Origin: Sulfuriferula plumbiphila
Lineage (GTDB): Bacteria > Pseudomonadota > Gammaproteobacteria > Burkholderiales > Sulfuriferulaceae
Direction: 5' to 3'
Length of the DNA: 64,000 bases
Assembly (NCBI RefSeq): GCF_009938015.1
Contig: NZ_AP021884.1
Location: 1,165,501-1,229,500, forward strand
Position 1 is the first letter of the stretch, and each line of letters begins with the position of its first letter. This document shows positions 32,627 to 46,717 of the stretch, piece after piece. Made by a program: the position numbers and the translations under genes. Under the pieces are notes generated by a model. The model did not search any database, was not told the origin of the DNA, and worked only from the letters and a program-made list of their open reading frames with translations.

Positions 32627-33175
32627 ATGGATCCCACTGAAATGATGGGCTCACAGGTCAAGTGCCTGCTATCCGGTGTGTCGGATCACGGGGATCGGCA
32701 TTTGGCGGAAGTCGAAACGGATCTGGTGCAGATGAATATTCTGCTTGGCGAAGCAATTAAAAAGCTGGGTGCGAGTTTCATGGCGATTCATGGCGCGCTC
32801 TGTATCCAGCAGGAGACGGTGAACCTGCTGCTGTCCGGCAGAACCCCTGCGGCTGAATGTGCCACCAGGCTGGAGGCCATTCATGGCGAGATAGGCCAGC
32901 ACGTGAATGCTGCCGTTACCGGCCTGCAGTTCCAGGATATGACCAGCCAGTTGATTGGCAGGATGGTGACGCATCTGGCAGGGCTGCGCGATGTGTTCGG
33001 CGCGCTCGACACAGGAAGCTCAAACGTGTTGCCGGAAAGCGGTCACGAAGACATCGTCACCTTGTTGAACAGCATCAACCAGATGCTCGCGGAGCGAAGC
33101 GTTGCGCTCGAAGGCGCTGTGCGCAAGGCGGTTAGCCAGAGGCACATGGAAAGCGGAGACATCGAGCTGTTTTAA
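32627..33175 (+). CDS. Putative CheZ-like chemotaxis protein
   Basis: This 182-residue, mainly helical protein lies 8 bp after flgL and leads into cheY1. It contains LQFQDMTSQLIGRM (100-113), closely similar to the CheZ active-site helix FQDLTGQVI, with D104 and Q108 at the catalytic D-x-x-x-Q positions. It ends in GDIELF, a tail shared with CheD and the diguanylate cyclase of this cluster. CheZ also ends in a CheY-binding peptide. It may therefore be a second CheY-P phosphatase or a CheY-binding helper; this is inference, since overall similarity to CheZ is low. The true cheZ is at 43375. Confidence 0.7.
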   Translation: MDPTEMMGSQVKCLLSGVSDHGDRHLAEVETDLVQMNILLGEAIKKLGASFMAIHGALCIQQETVNLLLSGRTPAAECATRLEAIHGEIGQHVNAAVTGLQFQDMTSQLIGRMVTHLAGLRDVFGALDTGSSNVLPESGHEDIVTLLNSINQMLAERSVALEGAVRKAVSQRHMESGDIELF

Positions 33176-33198
33176 CCAACAGCAGGAAACAATACGAG

Positions 33199-33213
33199 CG
33201 GGCATCCAGCCCG
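33199..33213. repeat. Small hairpin before cheY1
   Basis: CGGGC (33199-33203) and GCCCG (33209-33213) form a 5-bp stem with a 5-nt loop about 25 bp before the cheY1 start. No function is clear. Confidence 0.3.
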
Positions 33214-33237
33214 GAAACGAGAACAGCAGGAGCAAAG

Positions 33238-33603
33238 ATGGCCAAGACGATACTTGCAGTAGATGACTCCGGTTCACTGCGCCAGATGGTGGCGTTCAGC
33301 CTGAAGGCGGCTGGCTACGAGGTGATTGAGGCGGTGGATGGACAGGATGGCCTGGACAAGGCGAAGAAACAGACCGTTGATCTGGTGCTGACGGATCAGA
33401 ACATGCCGCGCATGGACGGCCTGAGCCTGATCAAGGCGCTGCGTGGAATGACGAGTTACCAGCGCGTGCCGATTCTGATGTTGACCACTGAATCCGGCGA
33501 CGATATGAAAGCACAGGGCAAAGCTGCGGGCGCCAATGGATGGCTGGTCAAGCCATTCGATCCGCAGCGCCTGACCGAGGTTGTGAAAAAAGTAATCGGC
33601 TGA
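33238..33603 (+). CDS. cheY: CheY-type single-domain response regulator (first copy)
   Basis: The 121-residue protein is a lone receiver domain with acidic pocket D9-D10, phospho-acceptor D53 in LTDQNMPRMDG, switch T in LMLTTES and the conserved K in WLVKPF. It differs clearly from CheY2 (42975-43373) and resembles the CheY paralogues encoded next to cheA in many beta- and gammaproteobacteria. Whether it binds FliM or acts as a phosphate sink is not decidable here. It starts the cheY1-cheA-cheW run. Confidence 0.93.
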   Translation: MAKTILAVDDSGSLRQMVAFSLKAAGYEVIEAVDGQDGLDKAKKQTVDLVLTDQNMPRMDGLSLIKALRGMTSYQRVPILMLTTESGDDMKAQGKAAGANGWLVKPFDPQRLTEVVKKVIG

Positions 33604-33649
33604 TGGAACCACAAGAAATCATGCAGTACGTAAATGACGGAGTCCGGCA

Positions 33650-35779
33650 ATGACCATTGATATGAGTCAGTTCTACCAGGTGTTCTTTGACGAGGCAGAG
33701 GAGCTGCTTGCCGAAAAGGAGAAACTGCTGCTGGCTGTCGATGTATCTGCACCGGATACGGAAGACCTCAACGCGATCTTCCGTACAGCACACTCGATCA
33801 AGGGTGGAGCAGCCACCTTCGGTTTCACTGACATCACCGAAGTGACGCACATGCTGGAGTCCTTGCTGGACAGAATTCGCAAAGGCGAGATGGCACTGAC
33901 GGCGGAGCATGTAGACGCATTCCTTGCCGCCAAGGACATTCTGAAAATGCAAATGGATGGTCACCGTCATGGTGCGAGCGTCGATCAGGATGCGGTTAAC
34001 AGTGTATGCCAGCGGTTACACGCACTGTCACAGGACTCCGCCCCACATGCAGGCGTTGCGGCGTCGCCTGTCTCCCAGCCGGAAAAGCGTGAACCCGAAG
34101 CCGAATCCACACAAATTCAAGCCGCGGCGACTACCCGCCGCTTCCGCATCGAACTGCCAGAGGTGCCCCAGCGGGACGTAGACGCGCTGGCTGCAGAACT
34201 GGGCTTGCTGGGCGCAATCAGCCAGACAGCACTTGACGACAAGCGTTTCGTTTTCACGCTGGCCACCAGCGAGAAGCGGGACGATATCATCGCCATCTGC
34301 TCATTCGTGCTGGATCCGGACGATCTCAGAATCACCGAGGAAGCTGCCCCGCCAGCAGCGCAGCCAGAGGTTGAAACCGCAGCAGCGTTGGCAGTGCGGG
34401 GGACAGAGTCAGGCTACGGGTTCTTCGAACCGATGAAGTCGGAAATCGCGAAAAAGGATATTTCCGCAACCGGGCAGGCCGCAACTGCAGCCGCGCTTCA
34501 CACAGACCATCCGGCAGAAGCCGAAACCACGGTATCCGCCGAAGGCAAGCCATTTGGCAGGCGTGCCACAGATAAACTACCCGCAACCCAGGAATCGTCA
34601 TCGATCCGCGTCGGCATTGAAAAGGTGGACCAGCTTATCAACCTGGTCGGCGAGCTGGTCATTACCCAGGCCATGATCGAGCAGCGCACCGGATCGCTCG
34701 ATCCCATCATCCATGAGCGCCTGTTGAACAGTGTCGGTCAGCTGACCCGGAATACGCGTGACTTGCAGGAAGCGGTGATGTCCATCCGCATGATGCCGAT
34801 GGATTATGTGTTCTCGCGCTTTCCGCGCATGGTGCGCGATCTGGCTGCCAAGCTCGGCAAAAAAGTTGAATTCATCACGCGCGGCGCTGCTACAGAACTC
34901 GACAAGGGTCTGATCGAGCGCATCGTTGATCCGCTCACGCACCTGGTGCGCAATAGCATTGATCACGGTATCGAAATGCCCGACGTGCGCCGGGCCACAG
35001 GCAAAGACGAAGCCGGCAAACTCACCCTTTCCGCGGCGCATCAGGGCGGCAACATCGTGATCGAGGTGAGTGACGATGGCGCTGGCCTGAATCGCGAAAG
35101 AATTCTTGCCAAGGCAGAACAGCAGGGTTTGCCGGTTTCAGACGGGATGCCGGACGCAGAAGTCTGGCAGCTTATCTTCGCGCCGGGCTTCTCCACCGCT
35201 GAAACGGTGACAGACGTTTCCGGTCGCGGTGTCGGCATGGATGTGGTCAAGCGCAATATCATGGCAATGGGGGGCACCGTGGAAATCCGCTCCGCCAAAG
35301 GCTTCGGCACCACCATGGCGATCTCCCTGCCACTGACGCTGGCGATTCTGGACGGCATGTCGGTCAAGGTCGGCGAGGAGGTGTACATCCTGCCGCTGGG
35401 TTACGTCATCGAATCACTGCAGCCCGCACCCGCAGACGTCAAGGAAATTGCCGGTCAGGGGCGGGTGGTCAAAGTCCGCGAAGAATATTTGCCGCTGATC
35501 CCGCTGCATCAGATTTTCGCGATCGAACCGCGTTTCACCGAGCCGTCGCTGGGTATTGTCGTGATCCTCGAATCCGATGGCAAAAAGGCGGCGCTGCTGG
35601 TCGATGCGCTGGTTGGCCAGCAGCAGGTGGTGGTGAAAAACCTCGAGTCGAATTTCCGCAAAGTGGCAGGCATTTCCGGCGCCACCATTCTGGGTGACGG
35701 CGGCGTTTCCCTGATTCTCGACGTCTCTGCGCTATTGCGCTCAAGTCGCCAGCTTAACGCTGCTCCCATTTTCTCCTGA
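33650..35779 (+). CDS. cheA: Chemotaxis histidine kinase CheA
   Basis: The 709-residue protein has a P1 phosphotransfer domain with H48 in [14 protein letters not shown] and a P2-like region near 160-230. A dimerisation helix pair, an HATPase domain with [20 protein letters not shown] and GRGVGMDVV, and a CheW-like P5 domain at the C-terminus follow. It phosphorylates CheY and CheB in response to receptor signals. GGAG precedes the ATG. It is a complete kinase with all catalytic boxes. Confidence 0.97.
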
Positions 35780-35793
35780 TAAGGACCAAGATC

Positions 35794-36312
35794 ATGTCGC
35801 AAACCGCACACACGCAAACCAACACTGCTGTAAACAAGGCGCAATCCGCCGTGGAAGTATCCGGAAACGAATTTCTTGCCTTCACATTGGGCAAGGAAGA
35901 ATACGGCATCGACATTCTCAAGGTGCAGGAGATTCGCGGTTACGAGCCGGTTACCCGGATCGCCAACGCCCCCGATTTCATCAAGGGGGTGGTGAACCTG
36001 CGCGGCATCATCGTGCCTATCGTCGACATGCGCATCAAGTTCAACCTGGGGGAGCCGACCTACGACCAGTTTACAGTGGTGATCATCCTCAACATCGCCG
36101 GCCGTGTAATGGGTATGGTGGTGGACAGCGTCTCTGACGTAACAACGCTCTCCGCGGGGCAGATAAAAGCGGCACCCGAGATGGGGACGACTTTTGACAC
36201 CGATTATCTGATCGGCCTCGGTACCCTCGAGGAGCGCATGCTGATCCTGGTGGATATCGACAAGCTCATGTCCAGCGCCGAGATGGGGCTGATTGAGAAG
36301 GCTGCGGCATAA
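35794..36312 (+). CDS. cheW: Chemotaxis coupling protein CheW
   Basis: The 172-residue single CheW domain has [54 protein letters not shown] and [10 protein letters not shown]. It couples receptors to CheA in the membrane-attached array. AAGGA stands before the start, 14 bp after cheA. Two receptor genes follow. Confidence 0.97.
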
Positions 36313-36391
36313 CGCAGGAAATCTGACCAGGGACGTCAAGCGCTTTCCGGCAAATTTTCGACCCCGGCATAAGAATGTGGAGGATGGGACA

Positions 36392-38092
36392 ATGTTAAGG
36401 AATCTGAGCATCAAATCGCGGCTGGTCTTTGTGATCGGCTTTCTTTCCCTGCTGCTGACGGGGATCGGCATCATGGGCCTGATCAGCCTGAATTCCGCCA
36501 ACAATTCATTGAAGACCGTATATGAGAATCGGCTGGTCACCATGGGGCGTCTGGATGAACTGGTCAGGCTGATCAACAAAAACCAGTTGGCCGTTGCCGA
36601 ATCCATCGTCGGTCAGTTATCTGCTTTCTCTGACGGGCCTGCGGTCATCGGAAAACAGATGGATAACGCGGAAAAAACCATCAAGGATATTGACCGGCTC
36701 TGGAACGCCTACATGGCGACCAGCCTGACTCCGGAAGAGAAAAAGCTCGCGGACAACTTTGTCGCCAGCCGCAAGAAATACGGCGGCGAAGGCATGCGCC
36801 CGGCGATGGCAGCGTTGCGTGCCGCAGATTTCCAGCAGGCCGGGGAAATTGTTCAGGGCCCGATGAAAGATGGTTATATGCAGGTGCGCAAGAATATTGA
36901 TGCGCTCATCCAGTACCAGATGGATCAGGCCAAAAGCGAGTTTGAAAAAACCCAGGGCATGTATGCCACGGTGCGCAATATTTCGATCGTCGCTATTCTG
37001 GCCGGTGTGCTGCTGGCCGCCTTTATCGGTGTCTGGCTTATCCGCGCCATTTCCGGGCCATTGAATGAGGCGGTACGGATTGCGAGAAGCGTTGCGGCGG
37101 GAGATTTAACCGAGACAATCGAAGTCCACTCCAAAGACGAAACCGGCCAGCTGATGCAGGCCATGAAAGACATGAACGACAGTCTGGCGCATATTGTCGG
37201 CCAGGTGCGCACCGGCACCGAAACCATTGCCGTGGCCTCGCACCAGATTGCCTCGGGCAACGCCGATCTGTCAGGCCGTACCGAATCGCAGGCGAGCTCG
37301 CTGGAAGAGACCGCCAGCTCCATGGAAGAACTCACCAGCACGGTGAAGCAGAATGCCGAACACGCGCGTCATGCCAACCAGCTGGTTGTGTCGACAGCCG
37401 AATTTGCAGTAAAGGGCGGCCAGGTTGTGGGTCAAGTGGTCGACACCATGGCTTCCATCAAGGCCAGCTCACGCAAGATATCCGACATCATCGGCGTGAT
37501 CGATGGCATTGCCTTCCAGACCAACATCCTGGCCTTGAACGCGGCGGTGGAAGCGGCGCGCGCCGGCGAACAGGGACGCGGCTTTGCCGTGGTGGCGGCG
37601 GAAGTGCGCAACCTGGCGCAACGTTCGGCGGGTGCCGCCAAGGAAATCAAGACCCTGATTGGCGACTCGGTGGAAAAGGTCGACGTGGGTAGCAAGCTGG
37701 TGGATGAAGCCGGCCAGACCATGGATGACATTGTCACCTCGGTGGAACTGGTGACTGAAATCATGAGCGGAATCGCTACTGCGAGCCAGGAACAGAGCGC
37801 CGGCATTGAGCAGATCAACCAGGCAGTGGGTCAGATGGACGAAGCCACGCAGCAGAACGCCGCGCTGGTGGAACAGGCCGCGGCGGCGGCGGAGAGCCTG
37901 CAGGAACAGGCCGGCAAACTGGCGCAGGCAGTGAGTATATTCAAGCTGGGTGAGGGAAGCCCATCCCATAGCCTGCAGATGGACATCCCGGTACTGCACG
38001 ACCAGGTGAAACCCAAGGCAGCATCCGCCAGAATGGCTGCCAAGCCGAAAAAACTGGCTGCCGGGGGCGGCGAGGATTGGGAAGAATTCTGA
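36392..38092 (+). CDS. Methyl-accepting chemotaxis protein (first copy)
   Basis: The 566-residue chemoreceptor has TM1 at about 9-32, a four-helix-bundle type periplasmic sensor (about 33-190), TM2 at about 193-215, HAMP, and a signalling domain whose hairpin tip reads [20 protein letters not shown]. It ends in the pentapeptide WEEF type (GGGEDWEEF), the tether for CheR/CheB. The ATG at 36392 has GGAG upstream. From about 37240 its coding sequence is nearly identical to the next receptor gene, whereas the sensor halves differ. The ligand is unknown. Confidence 0.95.
   Translation: MLRNLSIKSRLVFVIGFLSLLLTGIGIMGLISLNSANNSLKTVYENRLVTMGRLDELVRLINKNQLAVAESIVGQLSAFSDGPAVIGKQMDNAEKTIKDIDRLWNAYMATSLTPEEKKLADNFVASRKKYGGEGMRPAMAALRAADFQQAGEIVQGPMKDGYMQVRKNIDALIQYQMDQAKSEFEKTQGMYATVRNISIVAILAGVLLAAFIGVWLIRAISGPLNEAVRIARSVAAGDLTETIEVHSKDETGQLMQAMKDMNDSLAHIVGQVRTGTETIAVASHQIASGNADLSGRTESQASSLEETASSMEELTSTVKQNAEHARHANQLVVSTAEFAVKGGQVVGQVVDTMASIKASSRKISDIIGVIDGIAFQTNILALNAAVEAARAGEQGRGFAVVAAEVRNLAQRSAGAAKEIKTLIGDSVEKVDVGSKLVDEAGQTMDDIVTSVELVTEIMSGIATASQEQSAGIEQINQAVGQMDEATQQNAALVEQAAAAAESLQEQAGKLAQAVSIFKLGEGSPSHSLQMDIPVLHDQVKPKAASARMAAKPKKLAAGGGEDWEEF
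37240..37930 (+). repeat. Near-identical signalling-domain segment, copy in first MCP
   Basis: This stretch matches 39276-39966 in the second MCP gene almost base for base. For example 37471-37650 and the matching part from 39508 differ at about one position, including silent sites. Confidence 0.85.
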
Positions 38093-38203
38093 GCGCCTGC
38101 CGCCGGCCAGCGTCGTACCTAAGACGTTCCCCGGAAAGAGCGCGATTTCAATTGGCGTTGAGATTTTCCATCCTGCTATATTCCGTGGCCAAACCTAACC
38201 TGG

Positions 38204-38247
38204 ATGGTTCATAAATTCGCGTGATGTCACGCGAATTTATGAACCAT
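38204..38247. repeat. Perfect 21-bp inverted repeat between the two MCP genes
   Basis: Positions 38204-38224 are exactly complementary to 38227-38247, with a 2-bp centre. The left arm begins ATGGTTCATAAATTCGCG. No T-run follows on either strand. It could be a DNA cruciform, a protein-binding site or a strong mRNA hairpin ending the first MCP transcript. Confidence 0.9.
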
Positions 38248-38310
38248 ACGGACCAGCCCGAATCCATGCTGCCAGCCTGAATACGGCGACATAATATTCT
38301 CGCCCTGCAC

Positions 38311-38338
38311 TCAAGTTCCGACTCTGCTGTGTCGATAA
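38311..38338 (+). promoter_or_regulatory. Candidate sigma-28 promoter of second MCP gene
   Basis: TCAAGTTC (38311-38318), a 12-bp spacer and GTCGATAA (38331-38338) resemble the FliA consensus; the -10 matches 7 of 8 but the spacing is one base long. It lies about 115 bp before the second MCP start. The rest of the 360-bp gap 38093-38454 shows only the inverted repeat. Confidence 0.5.
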
Positions 38339-38454
38339 AAAAGCAAGCCCCACTGGGCAAGCGGGACGATTTCGGAGAAAGTGTCAGGCAATATGCGCCG
38401 ACCGTAAATCCCGGTAACAGTAGATTAAATTTGGATGAAAAGGGATTTGCAAAC

Positions 38455-40143
38455 ATGAATATGAAGTTAAAAACAAAGATCATTTTGAGCATGGGGCTGG
38501 TGTTCCTGCTTTTCAGCGTTGCGATCGGCGTGGCGCTGACGGGAATGCAGAGCACCAAGAACCGGTTCGAGGGCTTCCTGGAACACGATCTCGCGCTCTC
38601 GCAGGCTGCAACCAACCTGTATGCCCAAGGGCTGCAAATCGGGCAGGCGGTGCGCAACATTGTCATAGATCCGGCCAACAAGATGGCCTACCAGAATCTG
38701 GACATGGCGGGCAAAGAGTTCAAGGAAACCAATCAAAAGGCCCTGTCCATCGATAAACTGGATCCACCCGACCAGAAAGTCCTGGAAGACGTGGCGGCAC
38801 TGCGCGAGCAGCAAATTCCGATTCAGGCCAAAATCCTTTCCCTCGCAGGTGTGAACCAGGCTGCGGCCATTGAGGCAGTCAGCAAGGAAGAAACCCCGGT
38901 GTGGCGCAATATCCGGATACGTTTACGGGATTACATCAAGGCCAAGAACGCTGCTGTAGAAAACACCAAGGCGCAGATGGCCGCATTTAGCCAGCGCATG
39001 CTGGTCATCGCGCTGGTGCTGATGCTGGCAGCGGTGATCGTGGGCGCGGGGATCGTGTTCTGGCTGATCCGTCACATCATGAAGCAGCTGGGCGGTGAAC
39101 CCGTATATGCAGTCGAAGTTGCACGCGCGATATCTGCCGGAGACTTTTCCCGGGAAATTGCCGTTGCGAGAGGTGACAATAGCAGCCTGCTGTTTGCCAT
39201 GAATGCGATGCGTGAGAACCTGACCGCGACGATCGGCGGCATCAGGCAGTCAACCGAGACCATCGCGGTGGCTTCGCGCCAGATTGCCTCGGGCAACGCC
39301 GATCTGTCAGGCCGTACCGAATCGCAGGCGAGCTCGCTGGAAGAGACCGCCAGCTCGATGGAAGAACTCACCAGCACGGTGAAGCAGAACGCCGAGAACG
39401 CGCGTCAGGCCAATCAGCTCGTGGTCTCTGCCGCCGATGTAGCGGTCAAGGGCGGCCAGGTTGTGGACAAAGTGGTCGACACCATGGCTTCCATCAAAGA
39501 CAGCTCACGCAAGATATCCGACATCATCGGCGTGATCGACGGCATTGCCTTCCAGACCAACATCCTGGCCTTGAACGCGGCGGTGGAAGCGGCGCGCGCC
39601 GGCGAACAGGGACGCGGCTTTGCCGTGGTGGCGGCGGAAGTGCGCAACCTGGCGCAACGTTCGGCGGGTGCCGCCAAGGAAATCAAATCCCTGATCGAAG
39701 ACTCCGTCGACAAAGTCGACATTGGCGGCAAACTGGTGGACGAAGCCGGCAAGACCATGGAAGAGATCGTCAACTCAGTGAAGCGGGTCACCGACATCAT
39801 GGGCGAGATTGCCGCAGCGAGCCAGGAACAGAGCGCCGGCATCGAGCAGGTCAACCAGGCAGTGGGTCAGATGGACGAAGCCACGCAGCAGAACGCCGCG
39901 CTGGTGGAGCAGGCCGCGGCGGCGGCGGAGAGCCTGCAGGAACAGGCCGGCAAGCTGGCGCAGGCAGTGAGCGTGTTTAATCTGGGAGGAGGAAGCCAGC
40001 CGGCCCGTAGCGCCCAGATGGACATCCCGGTCCTGCACAGCCAAATGCGGCCAAAGCCCAAGGCAGCGCCAGCCCGAATGGCCGTCAAGCCTAAAAAACT
40101 GGCTGTCGGCGGGAGCAGCAGCGAGGAGTGGGAAGAGTTTTAA
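38455..40143 (+). CDS. Methyl-accepting chemotaxis protein (second copy)
   Basis: The 562-residue receptor has TM1 at about 9-31 ([19 protein letters not shown]), a different four-helix-bundle sensor, TM2 around 185-208, HAMP, and the same signalling domain as the upstream receptor. It ends SSSEEWEEF, again a CheR-tether type tail. The ATG at 38455 follows AAGGGA; a longer frame would include the promoter. The gene is downstream of its own candidate late promoter. The ligand is unknown. Confidence 0.95.
39276..39966 (+). repeat. Near-identical signalling-domain segment, copy in second MCP
   Basis: Partner of 37240-37930. The identity starts after HAMP, runs through the hairpin tip and fades near the C-terminal linker. 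Confidence 0.85.
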
Positions 40144-40274
40144 CCGGAACACGATGTCTGGACCATGGTTGGCGGTTCTCATGCATAAGTTGATATCAGA
40201 CCCGCGTTCGCGCTCGGTCGGATTCCCTGATAAATGATCGTTCGGTGCAACCGGGCGTTAAGGAAAATCTCAGC

Positions 40275-41147
40275 ATGAAGGCTGCGCAGAATAAATCGGA
40301 TCCCGACAAGGTATTCGAATTCACGCCTCGCGATTTTGCCAGAGTGCGTGCCATGATTTACCGGCAAGCCGGGATTTCGCTTGGCGAAAGCAAGCAGGAA
40401 ATGGTCTACAGCCGTCTGGCGCGACGCCTGCGGGCAAAGGGAATGACCTCTTTCACGGAATATCTCGATGCGCTGGAAAGCGGGCGCGGCGGCGACGAAT
40501 GGGAGGCATTCACCAATGCCTTGACCACCAATCTGACATCATTCTTTCGCGAGGCACACCATTTCCCGATTCTGGCGGAGCACATGCGCAAGATGAAAGA
40601 GCCGCTGGCGGTCTGGTGTTCGGCCAGCTCGACCGGGGAAGAGCCCTACTCGATCGCCATGACGCTATGCGAAGCGTTTGATACACTCACCCCCCCCGTG
40701 ACCATCGTGGCAACGGATATCGATACAAACGTGCTCGAGACCGCGGCCAATGGCGTTTATGCAATCGACAGGCTGGACAAGATGCCGAAGGATCGCGCCA
40801 AGCGCTTTTTCCTGAAAGGCAAGGGCGAGCGGGCAGGCCTGGTGCGGGTACGCCCTGAACTTCGCCAGCTGGTATCATTCAAACAGCTTAACCTGTTGGG
40901 AAACGACTGGCCGATTGCGGGCCCATTCGATGCCATATTCTGCCGCAACGTAATGATCTATTTCGATAAGCCTACCCAGGGTAAAATTCTGTCCCGGTTT
41001 GCACCTCTGATGAAGCCGCAGGGCTTGTTGTTTGCCGGGCACTCCGAAAATTTCCTGTACGCATCCGATGCGTTCAGGCTGCGCGGCAAGACAGTGTACG
41101 AGCTGGACCAGCGTCGCAGCGCAGCTGGCATGAGAAGCGACACATGA
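40275..41147 (+). CDS. cheR: Chemoreceptor methyltransferase CheR
   Basis: The 290-residue protein has the CheR N-terminal helical domain ([20 protein letters not shown]) and the SAM-binding domain with [29 protein letters not shown] and [15 protein letters not shown]. It methylates receptor glutamates; both MCPs here carry a WEEF tail it could bind. The ATG at 40275 has AAGGA upstream and is preferred to a GTG at 40245. The stop overlaps cheD by 4 bp. Confidence 0.96.
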
Positions 41148-41752
41148 ACCCTGCAATCGAAGAGCATTTTGCGACCAATATTTACTATGACCGGACGTTC
41201 GCTTGTGATGCGGCGAAGATACTGCCAGGTGAATACTACTTTACCGGCAAGGAGATGCTCATTGTCACCGTGCTGGGATCCTGTGTGGCGGCGTGCATTC
41301 GTGATCGTGTCTCGGGTGTGGGTGGCATGAACCACTTCATGCTGCCGGACAGCGGGAATGACGCCGACAGTCCGTTGTCCGCATCGATGCGTTATGGCGC
41401 CTATGCCATGGAGGTGTTGATCAACGAGCTGCTCAAGGCGGGTGCGCGACGTGAAAACCTGGAGGCGAAGGTGTTTGGCGGCGGCAATGTGCTGCGCGGT
41501 TTTACCACCATCAACGTGGGTGAACGCAATGCCCTGTTCGTGCGCGACTACCTGCGCGCCGAGAATGTGCGCATCACGGCCGAGGATCTGAACGATATCC
41601 ATCCGCGCAAAGTGTATTTCTTTCCGCGCACCGGCAAGGTACTGGTCAAGAAACTCAAGCAACTCAACAACTACACGCTGGTGAAGCGGGAGCAGGACTA
41701 CGCAATCCGGTTAAGAACCAGCCAGGTGAGCGGCGATATCGATCTTTTTTGA
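41144..41752 (+). CDS. cheD: Chemoreceptor glutamine deamidase CheD
   Basis: The 202-residue protein has the CheD catalytic cysteine C47 in LGSCVAACI and H64 in GGMNHFMLP, plus KVFGGGNVL. It deamidates receptor glutamines and in some bacteria works with CheC-type phosphatases. The extreme C-terminus SGDIDLF is an add-on shared with the CheZ-like protein and the diguanylate cyclase in this cluster. The start overlaps cheR by 4 bp. Confidence 0.95.
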
Positions 41753-41798
41753 TCGCCAGGCCTCAACGTACGAGGGCGATGCCCGGAAAGCAGGCTGC

Positions 41799-42872
41799 AT
41801 GAAAATAAAAGTTCTGATTGTGGATGATTCGGCGCTGATCCGCGGCGTGATGAGCGAGATCATCAATAGCCAGTGGGACATGGAAGTGGTGGGCGTGGCG
41901 CCTGACCCCATTGTTGCGCGCGAACTGATAAAACAGACCAATCCTGATGTGCTCACGCTTGACGTGGAAATGCCGAAAATGGACGGCCTGGATTTCCTCG
42001 AGAAACTCATGCGGCTGCGGCCGATGCCAGTGGTCATGGTGTCGTCGCTGACCGAGAACGGGTCGGAAATCACCCTGCGCGCGCTGGAACTGGGCGCCGT
42101 GGATTTCGTGACCAAACCGAAGCTATCCATCCAGAGCGGTATGCGCGAGTATACGAACTTGATTGCAGAGAAAATCCGCATCGCATCGAGGGCAAACATC
42201 AAACCACGCATGCTTGTTGCGGGAGCACATGGCACTCATGGCGAGGCGCTGGCTCCAATCCGCAATCCGCTCACCAGCAGTGAAAAACTGATCATCATCG
42301 GCGCCTCCACCGGCGGCACCGAGGCCATCAAGGAATTCCTCATGCAGATGCCCTCGGACTGTCCCGGCATCCTGGTCACCCAGCATATGCCGGAGGGATT
42401 CACCCGGTCATTTGCAAACCGGCTCGACAAACTGTGCAAAATATCCGTCAAAGAAGCCGAAGAGGGCGAACGGGTGCTGCCGGGTCATGCCTACATCGCA
42501 CCGGGGCATTCCCATTTACTGCTTGTGCGCAGCGGCGCAAACTACATGACCAAACTCGATCAGGGACCGCCGGTGAACCGTCATCGCCCCTCGGTGGATG
42601 TGCTGTTCAGTTCCGCAGCAGTCAGCGCCGGCAAGAACGCGGTTGGGGTCATCCTCACCGGCATGGGCAAGGATGGCGCAGCAGGGATGCTGGAAATGAA
42701 AAATGCCGGCGCGTATAACTTTGCCCAGGATGAGTCCACATGTGTCGTATTTGGCATGCCACGGGAAGCAATTGCTGTTGGCGCCACGCATGAGGTTGGA
42801 CCGCTGAATGAGTTGCCAGGCAGAATGCTGGCTTATTTTGCAGCGCATTCCAGCCGCGCATTGCGGGTCTGA
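41799..42872 (+). CDS. cheB: Chemoreceptor methylesterase/deamidase CheB
   Basis: The 357-residue protein has a receiver domain with D55 in [12 protein letters not shown] and a C-terminal esterase with the triad S170 (GASTGGTEA), H196 (TQHMPEGF) and D292 (GMGKDGA). It removes receptor methyl groups after phosphorylation by CheA. It follows cheD by 46 bp. A weak hairpin and a sigma-28 promoter follow, so cheYZ can be transcribed separately. Confidence 0.97.
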
Positions 42873-42875
42873 TCC

Positions 42876-42894
42876 ACCCCAACACCGGGGTTTT
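42876..42894 (+). terminator. Weak terminator-like hairpin after cheB
   Basis: ACCCC (42876-42880) and GGGGT (42887-42891) flank a 6-nt loop and are followed by TTT. The stem is short, so termination is probably partial. Confidence 0.4.
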
Positions 42895-42910
42895 CCGTTC
42901 GGTTTTTCGC

Positions 42911-42937
42911 TTAAGTTCGGTGCGCAGCTGCCGATAA
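42911..42937 (+). promoter_or_regulatory. Sigma-28 promoter of cheY2-cheZ
   Basis: TTAAGTTC (42911-42918), an 11-bp spacer and GCCGATAA (42930-42937) give a perfect FliA -10 and a 6-of-8 -35. It lies 38 bp before the cheY2 ATG. Confidence 0.88.
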
Positions 42938-42974
42938 CCGATTAACCAAGTTAATAGAATCAATGGAGCAATTC

Positions 42975-43373
42975 ATGGCTGATCCGAATACCAAATTCCT
43001 GGTTGTTGACGATTTTTCAACCATGCGCCGCATCGTGCGCAACCTGCTCAAAGAGCTTGGCTATTCCAACGTCGAAGAGGCGGAAGACGGGGTCGATGGG
43101 CTGGCCAAACTGAGGGCAGGCAATTTTGATTTCGTCGTGTCCGACTGGAACATGCCCAACATGGATGGACTCACCATGCTGAAGGAAATCCGCGCAGATG
43201 CGGCGCTGGCAAAGCTCCCGGTGCTGATGGTCACCGCAGAAGCAAAAAAGGAAAACATTATCGCAGCGGCGCAGGCCGGTGCCAGTGGCTACGTGGTCAA
43301 ACCATTCACAGCCGTTACACTCGACGAGAAACTCGCCAAGATTTTCGAGAAACTTGAAAAAGTGGGAGCCTGA
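42975..43373 (+). CDS. cheY: Chemotaxis response regulator CheY (second copy, E. coli-like)
   Basis: The 132-residue protein is strikingly like E. coli CheY, including [20 protein letters not shown] and [12 protein letters not shown]12-D13, D57, T87 and K109 fall at the classical positions. It binds FliM when phosphorylated and reverses the motor. The ATG at 42975 was chosen because GGAG sits 6 bp upstream, overlapping an earlier in-frame ATG at 42963. cheZ follows after 1 bp. Confidence 0.97.
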
Positions 43374-43374
43374 T

Positions 43375-44055
43375 GTGAATACACTACTCCCGCATGTGAC
43401 GCTGGATGCTGTCGCTTACCAAGCCAAGGGTTCCGAGCCCGGCCAGCATGACGAGGTCATGGCGCGCATTGGCCAGATGACGCGGAGCCTGCACGAGAGC
43501 CTGCGTGAACTGGGTTTCGACAAGGTTCTGGAAAAGGCGACGCATGACATTCCCGATGTCAGGGAACGTCTGAACTATGTCGCACGCATGACCGAACAGG
43601 CTGCTCAGCGGGTGCTGAACGCCACCGATACCGCAATACCCTTGCAGGAGAGGATAGATGCGGGTGCCGGCGAAGTTCTGAATGGCTGGCACACGGTTCT
43701 GAAAGCACCCTTTTCGGAGGCGGATTACCGCGACATGGCCACGCTTACCATGCAGTGCCTGGCTGACATGCGCCACGACACCAGCGCAACCAAGCAGCAG
43801 CTTCTGGATATCATGATGGCGCAGGATTTCCAGGACCTTACCGGTCAGGTTATCCGCAGAGTGACTGAACTTGCGCACCACCTGGAGCAGCAACTCGTGC
43901 AGCTGCTCATTGACTATGCGCCTGCCTCTGCGGAGGTGCGACGGGATGCTGGCAACGGACTGCTCAATGGCCCGCAGATTAATCCTGCTGGCAATAGCGA
44001 TGTGGTTGCTGACCAGGGGCAGGTGGACGACCTGCTGGACAGTCTCGGTTTTTGA
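43375..44055 (+). CDS. cheZ: CheY-P phosphatase CheZ
   Basis: The 226-residue protein has the CheZ active-site helix MMAQDFQDLTGQVIRRV with D154 and Q158, and ends QVDDLLDSLGF, the CheY-binding peptide also found in enterobacteria. It speeds dephosphorylation of CheY. The GTG start at 43375 has GGGAG 6 bp upstream and starts one base after the cheY2 stop; a longer frame would overlap cheY2 heavily. Confidence 0.95.
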   Translation: MNTLLPHVTLDAVAYQAKGSEPGQHDEVMARIGQMTRSLHESLRELGFDKVLEKATHDIPDVRERLNYVARMTEQAAQRVLNATDTAIPLQERIDAGAGEVLNGWHTVLKAPFSEADYRDMATLTMQCLADMRHDTSATKQQLLDIMMAQDFQDLTGQVIRRVTELAHHLEQQLVQLLIDYAPASAEVRRDAGNGLLNGPQINPAGNSDVVADQGQVDDLLDSLGF

Positions 44056-44065
44056 ATAAACTCAA

Positions 44066-44216
44066 AAATCCCATTTGGCCACGGCGGTCACGGCGAGCAC
44101 GGGGGAAACAATGAAGGCGAAAGGCAAAAATGGAAAGGTGGCAATCACGCCCCGGGAGGTATCTTGGATTTTGCCTTTTGCTTTTTTGTTTCCCCATGGT
44201 TAAATTGTCGTTTTTA
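44066..44216. repeat. Intergenic repeat copy G (core type 1)
   Basis: It contains CACGGCGAGCACGGGGGAAA, then GAAGGCGAAAGGCAAAAATG, CCCCGGGAGGTATCTTGG, ATTTTGCCTTTTGC and the right end TTTCCCCATGGTTAAATTG. The core matches copies A and H. It fills most of the cheZ to EAL/HDOD gap. Confidence 0.82.
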
Positions 44217-44284
44217 GCAAAGGTCGGAACGGGGTTGCGCCGCGCCGGAGTCATTCCCCTACCCAATACAATGTTGACTAGCCC

Positions 44285-45499
44285 ATGCCTGAAATGAATG
44301 TCGTCGTGCGCGAGCCGCTGCTGGATGCGCAGCAGCGCATTATCGGATACGCGCTTGCCTGGCAACAGGCCGAGATTGATGCTTGCAGGTCAGCTGCAAT
44401 GAACCCCACAACGCTGGCTGGCCTGGTTGCCGCCGCAATCAATAATGAGCAGGCTGGCTGGCGCCTCGGTGATCATGTCTTGTTCCTGGAAGCCGCGCCA
44501 GCACTTCTTTTGGCCGATGTGCTCACAGCCCTGCCGGCCAACAACATTGTGCTTGTGATAAACGCGAGCGATTGTGCGGATGTCGGCACCGTAGCCGCGC
44601 TGCGGGCACTGCGTAAGCGGGGTTTTGGTATCTCACTGCGCTGGACGGGGTTGGCAGAACCGGACAAGGCGCTCTTTTCTCTGGTTACCCATATCGAGAT
44701 ATCTGTCAGCAAGACCGATTTCGCCGTGCAAGCCAAGCAATATGCCTTGATCAAACACCTGCCAGTGCACAAGGTGGCGCGGCACATCGCTGGCTGGCAT
44801 GACTACGACGCCTGCGTATCGCTTGGCTTTGATTTGCTGGCTGGCCCTTTCCATCTGATGCCCCGGCCAGATAGCGCGTCCAAAGGCTTGAACACCTCAC
44901 AAGTGTTGATTGTGGAGCTGCTGGAGATGGTCAGAAAGAACGCGGACGTGCGCCAGATCGAGCTTGTGCTGAAACGCGACCCCGTCGTTTCCTACAAATT
45001 ATTGCGCTTTATCAACTCGGCGGGATTCGGTCTTGGTTGTGAGATAGAGTCACTGCGTCACGCAGTTCAGGTACTTGGCTACACCCCGCTTTATCGCTGG
45101 CTATCATTGTTGCTGGCGACCGCCGGCACCAGCAAGACTGCTCAGCTGCTGATGCAGACAGCAATTATCCGTGGTCGGCTGGCTGAGCTGCTTGGCGATA
45201 CTTTTCTGCCCAAGGCCGAGACGGATAATCTCTTTGTCGCAGGTTTGTTTTCCCTGCTGGACCGGCTGCTAGGCATGTCGATGGGAGAGGTGCTGGACAA
45301 GATTCAGCTGCCCGAAGCGATGTCGCAGGCTTTACTGACCCGTGAAGGGATATATGGCGACTTTCTGGCCCTTGCCGAAGCCTGTGAACGGGGTACCGGT
45401 TGTGCAGGAAGGCTGGCTGCCTCTCTACAGATTGATGCCGCCCAGGTCAGCCAGAAACATCTGTCGGCACTCGCGTGGGCGCAAAATATGGACGTGTAA
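44285..45499 (+). CDS. Degenerate EAL-HDOD protein (YuxH-like)
   Basis: The 404-residue protein has an N-terminal EAL-like domain (about 5-190) that begins VVREPLLDAQQRIIGYALAW and lacks the EAL motif and catalytic acids. A C-terminal HDOD domain (about 195-395) follows with LKRDPVVSYKLLRFINSAGF and AGLFSLLDRLLGMSM. This is the YuxH-type arrangement, in which neither domain is expected to be catalytic. It is probably a c-di-GMP-linked protein-interaction module. It lies after cheZ and before a diguanylate cyclase gene. Confidence 0.88.
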   Translation: MPEMNVVVREPLLDAQQRIIGYALAWQQAEIDACRSAAMNPTTLAGLVAAAINNEQAGWRLGDHVLFLEAAPALLLADVLTALPANNIVLVINASDCADVGTVAALRALRKRGFGISLRWTGLAEPDKALFSLVTHIEISVSKTDFAVQAKQYALIKHLPVHKVARHIAGWHDYDACVSLGFDLLAGPFHLMPRPDSASKGLNTSQVLIVELLEMVRKNADVRQIELVLKRDPVVSYKLLRFINSAGFGLGCEIESLRHAVQVLGYTPLYRWLSLLLATAGTSKTAQLLMQTAIIRGRLAELLGDTFLPKAETDNLFVAGLFSLLDRLLGMSMGEVLDKIQLPEAMSQALLTREGIYGDFLALAEACERGTGCAGRLAASLQIDAAQVSQKHLSALAWAQNMDV

Positions 45500-45685
45500 T
45501 CAGGGCCAGCTCCACCACCAGTGGTCACGCTTGATGAATTTGTCATGCAATCCAGCGAGTGCAGGCTTGCTGGTTGGATAGCCAAACAATGGATTAATTG
45601 CCCAAAAAGTTACCAATATAAGGAATAATCAGGGAAAATTTTGGACGATTTCCAGTAATTCCAGGTGGCTCATGGAGTGCGGCGC
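45500..45685. other. AT-rich gap before diguanylate cyclase
   Basis: About 185 bp with no gene. The second half is AT-rich (near 45590-45660) and may hold a promoter for the GGDEF gene. No sigma-28 site was found. Confidence 0.4.
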
Positions 45686-46717
45686 ATGACAAAATATAAT
45701 ACTTCGCATCTACTTGAATCCGTAGTCAGGTTGACTTCACTGCGCGACCAGCATTCGCTGGAAATATGCCTGATCAAGACCTTGCAAGGGCTTATTCCAG
45801 CAAGTCAGATCATGTTGTTTGAAATATCCGGGGAATCCGGCAAGCAAATGCTCAGGCTGCTTGTTGATGCTGACTCCGCTCATCGAGGCCGTGTGCCGGA
45901 AGCAGAAAAGCACATCATTCCGCGTTGTGTCGAGGACGACCCCGACTTGATGCAATGCTTCACCACGGGACAACAACTTGTATCCACTGAGGATGATGGG
46001 AGCGGCGTGAGAGTGATCCATCCGATAGCCGGCGTGAACGGCATCGCCGGGTTTTTGACCGTCAGGAGTGGCGCTTTTGTGGAAAAAGACCAGGAAGTGG
46101 CGGCCAGCTTCTTGCATATTTATCAAAATTATCTGCAGCTGATCAATGATAGCGAGCACGATACCCTGACCGGCCTGTTGAACCGGAAAACCTTTGACGA
46201 GCGCATCATGGCGATCATGGCAGCGCACCGTGCCGGCCAGCGTCGCGCGGCGGATAATAAAGCAATGCAATGTTGTCTGGCCATCCTGGATATCGATCAC
46301 TTCAAGAAAGTAAATGACCAGTTCGGCCATCTATACGGCGATGAAGTGTTGCTGCTGTTTGCGCAAATCATGAGCCGCACCTTTCGCGATGACGATCAGC
46401 TTTTCCGCTACGGTGGGGAGGAGTTTGTGGTTGTCCTCAAAGAAGTCGATTTGACCACGGGGCTGGCCGTCCTGGAACGCTTCAGAAAGGCGGTAGAGGC
46501 CTATCATTTTCCCCAGGTAGGCAATATCACGGCCAGTGTCGGCGCGGTAACCATAAGTGAACAGGACTTGCCGACCACCATTATCGGGCAGGCGGACCAG
46601 GCGCTGTACTATGCAAAGGAAAACGGACGCAACCAGGTATGCGCCTATGAAAGGCTGCTGCAGGAAGGCAAGCTGACCGGCATGGTGCCTTCCCAGGGCG
46701 ACATCGAATTGTTTTAA
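45686..46717 (+). CDS. Diguanylate cyclase with N-terminal GAF-like domain
   Basis: The 343-residue protein has a GAF-like sensor (about 10-150) and a GGDEF domain with active-site GGEEF at 243-247 and inhibitory-site RxxD (RDDD, 234-237). Active synthesis of c-di-GMP is therefore likely. It ends SQGDIELF, the same tail as the CheZ-like protein and nearly that of CheD. The ATG at 45686 has GGAG upstream and is preferred to GTG 45665. The context suggests a motility-linked cyclase. Confidence 0.9.
   Translation: MTKYNTSHLLESVVRLTSLRDQHSLEICLIKTLQGLIPASQIMLFEISGESGKQMLRLLVDADSAHRGRVPEAEKHIIPRCVEDDPDLMQCFTTGQQLVSTEDDGSGVRVIHPIAGVNGIAGFLTVRSGAFVEKDQEVAASFLHIYQNYLQLINDSEHDTLTGLLNRKTFDERIMAIMAAHRAGQRRAADNKAMQCCLAILDIDHFKKVNDQFGHLYGDEVLLLFAQIMSRTFRDDDQLFRYGGEEFVVVLKEVDLTTGLAVLERFRKAVEAYHFPQVGNITASVGAVTISEQDLPTTIIGQADQALYYAKENGRNQVCAYERLLQEGKLTGMVPSQGDIELF

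Follow-up and report, generated by a model that had tools for sequence, protein, structure and literature searches.

Unrelated chemotaxis proteins of Sulfuriferula plumbiphila share a C-terminal tail, a probable docking peptide for a single partner, most likely an F7-class CheY

We analysed a 64,000-nucleotide stretch of the Sulfuriferula plumbiphila genome (contig NZ_AP021884.1, positions 1,165,501 to 1,229,500; hereafter the window), which contains a chemotaxis cluster with the following genes and features, given in window coordinates.

32627..33175, + strand: CZL, a CheZ-like protein of 182 aa, by hhalign an McpA-like relative without the MCP hairpin; no Pfam match
32930..32950, + strand: FQDMTSQ, residues 102-108 of CZL, a CheZ-type DxxxQ motif (from alignment)
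33155..33172, + strand: GDIELF tail of CZL (pattern search; orthologue C-termini)
33238..33603, + strand: cheY1, an F7-type CheY with GWLVKPFDP, the proposed partner (linkage; residues)
33650..35779, + strand: cheA, a reference gene in the locus comparison
35794..36312, + strand: cheW, a reference gene in the locus comparison
36392..38092, + strand: MCP ending DWEEF, of the CheR tether type, without a GDIELF tail
38455..40143, + strand: MCP ending EWEEF
41144..41752, + strand: cheD (Pfam CheD PF03975, E 2.3e-34)
41732..41749, + strand: GDIDLF tail of CheD (pattern search; orthologue C-termini)
42975..43373, + strand: cheY2, an F6-type CheY paired with cheZ
43375..44055, + strand: cheZ, ending LDSLGF, start codon provisional (Pfam CheZ, E 1.3e-73)
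45686..46717, + strand: GGDEF protein, a presumed diguanylate cyclase (Pfam GGDEF, E 3.6e-38)
46697..46714, + strand: GDIELF tail of the GGDEF protein (pattern search; homologues)

The original prediction, made from this DNA alone, held that three unrelated proteins of the cluster share a C-terminal tail. Translation bore this out, with GDIELF at the end of 32627-33175, GDIDLF at the end of 41144-41752 and GDIELF at the end of 45686-46717, and the contrasting ends that it gave for CheZ (LDSLGF) and for both MCPs (WEEF) were also correct. As it had further stated, no other protein in the window carries the tail: the DNA pattern D[IV][ED]LF-stop occurred at these three places only, against 0.01 expected from shuffled sequence. 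Across the whole 3.45 Mb genome GD[IV][ED]LF-stop gave three matches, all on the named genes (reversed control, 0), and the looser [DE][IVM][DE]LF-stop returned the same three only (control matches, 2). The pattern used in the window, in the strict whole-genome search and in the 399-genome search described below misses Val encoded by GTG, so that these counts are lower bounds; it also accepts TGG or Phe at position 5, and such matches were removed by inspecting reading frames. The codons differ among the three window tails, which are therefore not a recent copy. Pfam assigns CheD and the GGDEF protein to different families, and CZL to neither.

Among 399 genomes of the order, at least 115 contained a tail match, at 149 sites compared with one for the reversed control. 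Tail-ending frames were read at the order, class and phylum levels, and 245 of the 248 could be assigned to signalling families, the carriers being CheD, GGDEF proteins, McpA-like receptors, CheZ-like proteins and a few others. The tail is nearly restricted to signalling proteins, and the concern that it might be common on random proteins was not realised, either in this genome, where every match lay on a named gene, or across the order, where control matches were few. Among these frames McpA/CZL was the most frequent and phylogenetically broadest carrier. Some genomes have the tail on CheD or on a GGDEF protein yet gave no strict-tail match for McpA/CZL, although a variant-tailed McpA/CZL may be present in these. 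A likeness to the sliding-clamp motif QL[SD]LF was considered and dropped, since the carriers are signalling proteins.

The tail is kept among homologues of all three genes, if only loosely for the cyclase. CZL orthologues in the named loci end G[DE][IV]ELF without exception (45/45). CheD, which also scores above the cut-off for NCBIfam PRK13487, retains G[DEAS][IV][ED]LF in 77 of 80 named orthologues, nine of these with one additional residue. The tail of the GGDEF protein is the loosest of the three: only three of 30 homologues, the window's included, match strictly, while 29 of 30 end [LF]F. The translation of this protein reads GGEEF, and the GAF domain once attributed to it found no support, as Pfam at E 0.001 returned GGDEF only.

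CZL had been described as CheZ-like, a label that stands for its FQDxxxQ motif of CheZ type and fails for its kinship. In profile comparison by hhalign it aligned over nearly its full length with the McpA-like receptor family (E 4e-27, probability 99.7), the MCP hairpin of the receptors appearing as an insertion; neither Pfam nor hhalign found an MCP signalling domain in CZL. Sequence comparison thus identifies CZL as a relative of McpA-like receptors that appears to have lost the MCP hairpin and is not itself a receptor. Against Pfam CheZ (PF04344) it produced no match, nor against any other Pfam family; the score of a relative, L170, fell short of the cut-off (E 0.012). The CZL motif FQDMTSQ aligns with FQDLTGQ of CheZ, but the likeness spans only about 20 residues (hhalign probability 20%), and for McpA compared with CheZ the probability was 3%. 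By sequence, CheZ of 1kmi matched CZL at E 0.17, ranked behind unrelated coiled coils. On these profile probabilities the idea that CZL is a true CheZ was dropped; its tail is GDIELF and not of the LDSLGF type. F102, D104, T106 and Q108 were invariant in all 27 CZL sequences; in the receptor alignment A5, by contrast, 31 of the 32 receptors (all but the first) had been chosen by the DxxxQ motif, which makes invariance there uninformative. Among the McpA/CZL-type tail frames 134 of 150 contained [FY][QE]DxxxQ and three more FHDxxxQ. Eleven full-length McpA/CZL-type tail proteins lacked a motif of the DxxxQ type, including five distant CZL-type relatives (L175-L179) that nevertheless have cheY downstream; the idea that DxxxQ always accompanies the tail was accordingly rejected.

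Directly downstream of CZL lies cheY1. Its assignment to the F7 class is based on the gene order cheY1-cheA-cheW, with a separate cheY2-cheZ pair, and on class-specific residues; the same layout, F7 order plus separate cheY/cheZ pair, is shown by the stage 4 clusters of PMC7184735 (consulted in part). Unlike in F6 CheY, the region from helix 4 to helix 5 is strongly conserved in F7 CheY, with K95, G98, W106, D112, P113 and V119 at 97-99%. The best PDB match of the CheY1 orthologue in locus L107 was V. cholerae CheY4 (47%). According to the available part of PMC3774744, CheY4, a protein of the same type, lacks FliM binding and is expected not to interact with CheZ, and an F7-type CheY would therefore need another set of partners.

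Within the order, 72 of 84 McpA/CZL genes with the tail are followed by a cheY within 450 nt, and 71 of these cheY genes show the F7 signature. This adjacency is not a general rule: in other families of the class it was seen in only 4 of 29 cases, and outside the class it was absent throughout L307-L327 (0 of 21 McpA-like genes with the tail). The F7-CheY signature was present in 107 of the 110 genomes of the order whose tail proved genuine and in 60 of the 289 others (Fisher p 6e-49, a value that ignores kinship). Of 16 comparison genomes of our own choosing, 15 had the signature, and in all 15 a CZL gene with the tail lies immediately upstream of that cheY. Beyond the class the signature was missing from 26 of 35 genomes with the tail, including all 25 outside one family, and the tail frames of these 26 were nearly all McpA-like.

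Loss of the tail was also informative. In a Thiobacillus-type clade the CheD tail has decayed: the genomes of the three CheD proteins without a tail had neither the F7-CheY signature nor any tail-pattern match. At one such locus (L091) flgL adjoins cheA, and CZL and cheY1 are absent, while cheA, cheW, MCPs, cheR, cheB, cheY2 and cheZ are retained. In the other 45 named loci in which the region is visible, F7 cheY and the CheD tail are both there (45/45). The tailless CheDs form one clade (support 1.0), and the co-loss therefore counts as one event; since CZL was lost together with cheY1, it cannot tell the two apart. In three genomes (G1044 and the order members G249 and G339) the CheD tail is kept and F7 CheY was not detected. 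As tail partner, the co-loss makes CheY1 or CZL itself a better candidate than the array. The original prediction had named a CheY or the CheA array; the F7-type CheY1 is now the favoured part of that guess, whereas CheA, like CheW, CheR, CheB and CheY2, is disfavoured by this one-clade event.

Taken together, these results suggest that the tail probably docks several unrelated chemotaxis proteins onto one partner, with the old F7-class CheY as the likeliest candidate. In the model that we put forward, with belief and doubt in about equal measure, GDIELF serves the F7 system as a C-terminal docking peptide, CheY1 is its receptor, probably in the phosphorylated form, and CZL is the candidate phosphatase of CheY1. 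The DxxxQ helix would provide the chemistry and the tail would grip the substrate, much as CheZ serves the F6-type CheY2 through another tail. CheD and the GGDEF protein, with looser versions of the tail, would be further clients, such that CheY1~P may gather, or be competed for by, both the deamidase that feeds back on receptor adaptation and an enzyme that makes c-di-GMP. Binding of the tail to CheY1, phosphatase activity of CZL and control of the activity or place of the cyclase are the inferred elements of this model. Since conservation of the tail is weakest among the cyclase homologues, the proposed coupling of chemotaxis to c-di-GMP is the element of which we are least sure.

Structure prediction did not reproduce the docking. 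In an AlphaFold read-through of CZL and CheY1 the tail was left undocked, in blocks of mean pLDDT 26-39, and the positive control was itself weak, the CheY2-CheZ read-through giving 59-69 around the CheZ tail helix, higher but still below 70. The pair is weak evidence that leans against tail-CheY1 docking. CZL was modelled with helices at 3-71 and 78-134; in a fold search with the CZL-CheY1 model the matches listed were receiver-domain structures covering the CheY part only, CheZ not being among them.

An alternative that we consider unlikely places CZL/McpA at the hub, with the CheD and cyclase tails binding the helical body of its dimer and the CZL tail swapping between subunits. It would account for McpA/CZL being the commonest and phylogenetically widest carrier, for the disappearance of CZL along with cheY1 at L091, and for the McpA-like tails in the 26 genomes outside the class that lack the F7-CheY signature. 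Yet the C-terminus of CheZ, the nearest analogue, is a CheY-binding domain (reference cited in PMC7750401, consulted in part), and the genomes with a tail on CheD or a GGDEF protein but no strict-tail McpA/CZL match fit poorly, unless a variant-tailed one is present. Binding of the tail to the core array (CheA, CheW or a receptor) as a localisation signal seems improbable. The carriers are array-related, and in S. oneidensis McpA is found in clusters with CheA3 (PMC9855816, section 3.4, in part); according to the same source, however, this clustering needs CheA3 and CheW3 of the F6 array and not CheA1. A receptor can achieve this through its MCP tip with no tail required, and at L091 the CheD tail was lost although cheA, cheW and MCPs stayed.

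That the tail represents a degenerate form of the CheR/CheB pentapeptide, x-[HFYW]-x2-[HFYW], is very improbable. DIELF does resemble DWEEF, and both are C-terminal within the window, but position 2 is not aromatic: the three window tails have Ile there, and in other genomes the search pattern by design admits only Ile or Val. Moreover, the Val found there in McpA of P. aeruginosa is reported to block interaction with each of the four CheR proteins (PMC7184735, section 11, in part), cheR and cheB persist at L091, and none of CheD, CZL and the cyclase is a receptor that becomes methylated. Protease tags can be hydrophobic C-termini, which would allow a degradation signal or another general C-terminal tag; such a tag would not be so limited to signalling families, and we regard this reading as highly improbable. 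Chance or shared DNA ancestry, for which nothing spoke, is a negligible prospect, contradicted by the window, genome and 399-genome pattern counts and by the differing codons and protein families.

The available parts of PMC7184735 describe the C-terminus of F7-cluster McpA as highly conserved, without an aromatic CheR pentapeptide and with Val at position 2 in P. aeruginosa, and call its role 'important yet unclear'; we infer that this conserved motif is GD[IV]ELF. Many of the tail-bearing receptors of about 400 aa found here sit at the place of mcpA, beside cheB or directly before cheY. That study has mcpA lost from stage 3 on, while here the hairpin-less, tail-bearing CZL precedes F7 cheY, and its available parts say nothing of DxxxQ or of such a tail in CheD, in CheZ-like proteins or in cyclases. 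GDIELF did not occur in the main texts of the papers searched, fragments such as DVELF and DIELF gave only noise among the best 40 of 385 matches, and our literature search found no report of a tail shared among these proteins, conservation of the McpA C-terminus having already been published. A broader proposal, which we offer tentatively and think more apt to fail than to hold, is that GDIELF marks the missing F7 output: tail proteins would be clients of F7 CheY, McpA-like/CZL proteins its dedicated phosphatase, and CheY1~P would control adaptation through the CheD tail and local c-di-GMP synthesis through that of the cyclase. If true, chemotaxis and c-di-GMP would be physically linked, and a receptor would have become a small phosphatase-like protein through loss of its signalling hairpin. 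Because one peptide is common to a deamidase, a GGDEF protein and a protein resembling a phosphatase, questions about F7 CheY become accessible to direct binding and tail-deletion experiments.

Known systems offer partial parallels. In CheZ, as in the model of CZL, DxxxQ sits on a long helix and a short peptide closes the C-terminus, and CZL adjoins a cheY of its own; the peptides differ (LDSLGF and GDIELF), profile likeness is confined to the active-site stretch, and a true CheZ is also encoded in the window. The WEEF/NWETF tethers of CheR/CheB are likewise short C-terminal docking tags within chemotaxis, but differ in sequence, and GDIELF is also found on non-receptor proteins. In B. subtilis CheY-P strengthens the CheC-CheD interaction (PMC3513319, in part), which, as in our model, ties CheD to the state of CheY and to a phosphatase acting on it; the chemotaxis genes named in the window do not include a CheC, and the link there would instead be the tail common to CheD and CZL.

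Translation of the window gave the C-termini of three proteins exactly as the original prediction had stated them, each ending in GD[IV][ED]LF:

32627-33175, forward strand, CZL, a CheZ-like protein encoded directly before cheY1 (33238-33603)
41144-41752, forward strand, CheD
45686-46717, forward strand, GGDEF protein, the presumed cyclase

The pattern D[IV][ED]LF-stop matched three times in the window against 0.01 expected. A search of C-termini across the genome (3,452,774 bases) confined the GD[IV][ED]LF-stop tail to these three genes, with no match in the reversed control; the looser [DE][IVM][DE]LF-stop found nothing further (two control matches). The codons of the three tails differ from one another, and their likeness is therefore maintained at the protein level. 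The tail is very probably a genuine shared docking peptide. While short C-terminal docking peptides in chemotaxis and the conservation of the McpA C-terminus are already known, we found no account in the main texts searched of one tail common to CheD, CZL and the cyclase.

To survey tail carriers, genomes were sampled from the order, the class and the phylum (own class included), using a pattern blind to valine encoded as GTG, such that all census counts are lower bounds. Matches occurred in 115/399 order genomes (149 sites; reversed control 1), 60/369 class genomes (control 1) and 45/299 phylum genomes (control 4). Frames were read at all 149 order sites, where 144 had at least 50 residues and ended in the tail and five were rejected (TGG, phenylalanine at position 5, or frame too short). 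In the class 65 of 69 read sites ended in the tail (4 further sites were left out), and 42 of the 43 phylum sites new relative to the earlier samples were read.

Carriers among tail-ending frames, by sample
Order (n=144): 53 McpA-like, 38 CheD, 31 CZL-type, 13 GGDEF, 5 QFYD family, 2 other MCP, 1 REC protein, 1 unassigned
Class (n=65): 27 McpA-like, 26 CheD, 4 other MCP, 3 GGDEF, 3 QFYD family, 2 CZL-type
Phylum (n=39): 37 McpA-like (two, L302 and L303, still within the class), 2 unassigned

Signalling families account for 245 of the 248 tail-ending frames, two of them fragments classed from the tail side alone (L181 and L232, 59 and 54 residues). The classes depend on score cut-offs that we set and on profiles built from tail-bearing proteins, so that borderline CZL, McpA and QFYD assignments could shift, and CheD and GGDEF assignments would not. 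Two frames of 576 and 112 residues ending GDIELF (L375:1291-3021 and L301:1183-1521) matched nothing in the reference set and are either new carriers or chance. The other MCPs (L129, L136, L244, L248, L249 and L285) end in the tail and have no detected CheZ-like part, and a receiver-domain protein of 385 residues (L144:2864-4021) ends GDIDLF, a response regulator bearing the tail itself. The QFYD family (L146:3458-4021, L148:3443-4021, L149, L221:4001-4579, L039, L245, L259 and L260) comprises proteins mostly of 185-192 residues, without a Pfam match in the three members scanned, that combine the tail with an FQFYD[KR][LM][TSG]Q-like DxxxQ spacing in 7/8. In the loci seen they lie mostly outside che clusters, and they are possibly a second CheZ-like carrier.

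Conservation of the tail differed between the three genes. Among 45 CZL proteins in named CheD loci, all retained it (GDIELF 40, GDVELF 4, GEIELF 1). CheD, in 80 such loci, ended in GD[IV][ED]LF in 16, GE[IV][ED]LF in 41 and G[AS][IV][ED]LF in 11, with one extra residue in 9 and the tail lost in 3. Because some CheD tails carry this extra residue, the sequences suggest that a free carboxylate is not strictly required. Homologues of the GGDEF protein (34 matches in 31/150 order genomes at E 1e-40) held the tail only loosely: of 30 loci read, three had the strict form, the window's own included, six a relaxed form by our own pattern and 21 neither, although 29/30 ended in [LF]F. By these counts, the motif is tight on CZL and McpA, looser on CheD and loosest on the cyclase.

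The window's gene order, cheY1-cheA-cheW ... cheR-cheD-cheB followed by cheY2-cheZ, matches the stage-4 F7 arrangement in sections 10 and 12 of PMC7184735, in which the second cheY/cheZ pair derives from an F6 system. CheY1 is unlike CheY2 across helices 4 and 5, and K95, G98, W106, D112, P113 and V119 are each conserved at 97-99% among the CheY proteins adjoining tail genes (110 distinct sequences). The closest solved relative of the CheY1 of L107 is V. cholerae CheY4 (47%), which, according to PMC3774744, does not bind FliM and is expected not to bind CheZ. GW[x][VI]KPF[DN]P served as the F7-CheY signature.

CZL had no match in Pfam and none close to cut-off in NCBIfam. Its profile aligned nearly end to end with tail-bearing MCPs of ~400 residues (E 4e-27, probability 99.7), the MCP signalling hairpin forming an insertion. 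Many of these MCPs sit after cheB or directly before cheY, the position of mcpA in section 10 of PMC7184735; section 11 describes the McpA C-terminus as strikingly conserved, its role unclear. In the F7 stages of that source mcpA is lost from stage 3 on, whereas here a hairpin-less mcpA relative precedes the F7 cheY. The ~101-residue gene often following such MCPs encodes STAS in the one case checked (L252), as does the gene after cheB in L143. FQDLTGQ of CheZ aligns with FQDMTSQ of CZL, but similarity outside this stretch was not significant in profile and sequence comparisons. Of 150 McpA/CZL-type tail frames, 134 contain [FY][QE]DxxxQ and 3 FHDxxxQ; no motif was visible in 11 others, and the remaining 2 are fragments. 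None of the 27 aligned CZL sequences departs from this D and Q, and their final 14 residues approximate VxQxxMxSGDIELF. From motif and context, CZL may work like a CheZ.

Five CZL-type proteins (L175-L179), among the 11 frames, keep the tail and precede cheY without DxxxQ by the patterns used; their immediate upstream neighbours include HDOD and GGDEF-like genes. One family outside the class supplied ten carriers (L365-L374, 322-359 residues). They can be aligned with both CZL and McpA-like proteins, their best match in the window being CZL, and they retain FEDIxxQ and MDEGD[IV]DLF. A Pfam search of L369 found no MCP; this family has apparently lost its MCP tip to decay while keeping motif and tail. 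The F7-CheY signature is present in nine of these ten genomes.

The original prediction suggested that the tail may bring the three proteins to one partner, perhaps a CheY or the CheA array. In three Thiobacillus-type loci (L084, L091 and L104), CheD is 78-80% identical to the window's but ends DLN. These genomes contain neither the F7-CheY signature nor a match to G[DE][IV][ED]LF-stop, an imperfect pattern that gives no hit in G1048, although GDVELF and GEVDLF, written with GTG, are present in its frames. The signature is present in 15 of 16 comparison genomes of our choosing, in every case with a CZL frame bearing the tail immediately before it, and F7 cheY and the CheD tail are both present in 45/45 other CheD loci where that region is visible. 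Of the three loci, L091 is the one whose upstream region could be viewed: no frame of 90 residues lies between flgL and the following cheA, and cheA, cheW, MCPs, cheR, cheB, cheY2 and cheZ are retained. All three group in a single clade (support 1.0), and the loss therefore counts as one event. This co-loss argues against every retained protein as partner, the CheA/CheW array included, and would leave CheY1 or CZL.

The signature occurs in 167/399 order genomes: 107 of the 110 with a genuine tail (five matches that were no real tails excluded) versus 60/289 others, uncorrected for kinship. General presence of chemotaxis also contributes to this association. G231, one of the three exceptions, has GWLVKPFEP beside its tail gene. 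Against CheY1 as receptor, the signature is absent from 26/35 tail genomes outside the class, where cheY lies within 450 nt downstream in 0/21 tail-bearing McpA-like genes checked (L302, with a downstream cheY, belongs to the class and is not counted). Fold prediction of CZL with CheY1 also left the tail undocked (pLDDT blocks 26-39 over the tail), although the positive control, CheZ with CheY2, itself reached no more than 59-69 around its tail helix, so that the test is weak and leans against docking. On balance, CheY1 has about an even chance of being the receptor.

In our favoured reading, CheY1~P would be the hub: CZL would clear it, and CheD and the cyclase would be recruited by it or compete for it. 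Control of cyclase output through the tail is a more doubtful proposal. In S. oneidensis, McpA forms clusters together with CheA3, the kinase of the F6 system, and not with CheA1 (PMC9855816, section 3.4), which would fit a receptor tail reaching across to another system. An HDOD protein (44285-45499) lies between cheZ and the cyclase gene in the window, and in many relatives with collected CheD loci a gene matching it comes after cheZ or cheY2.
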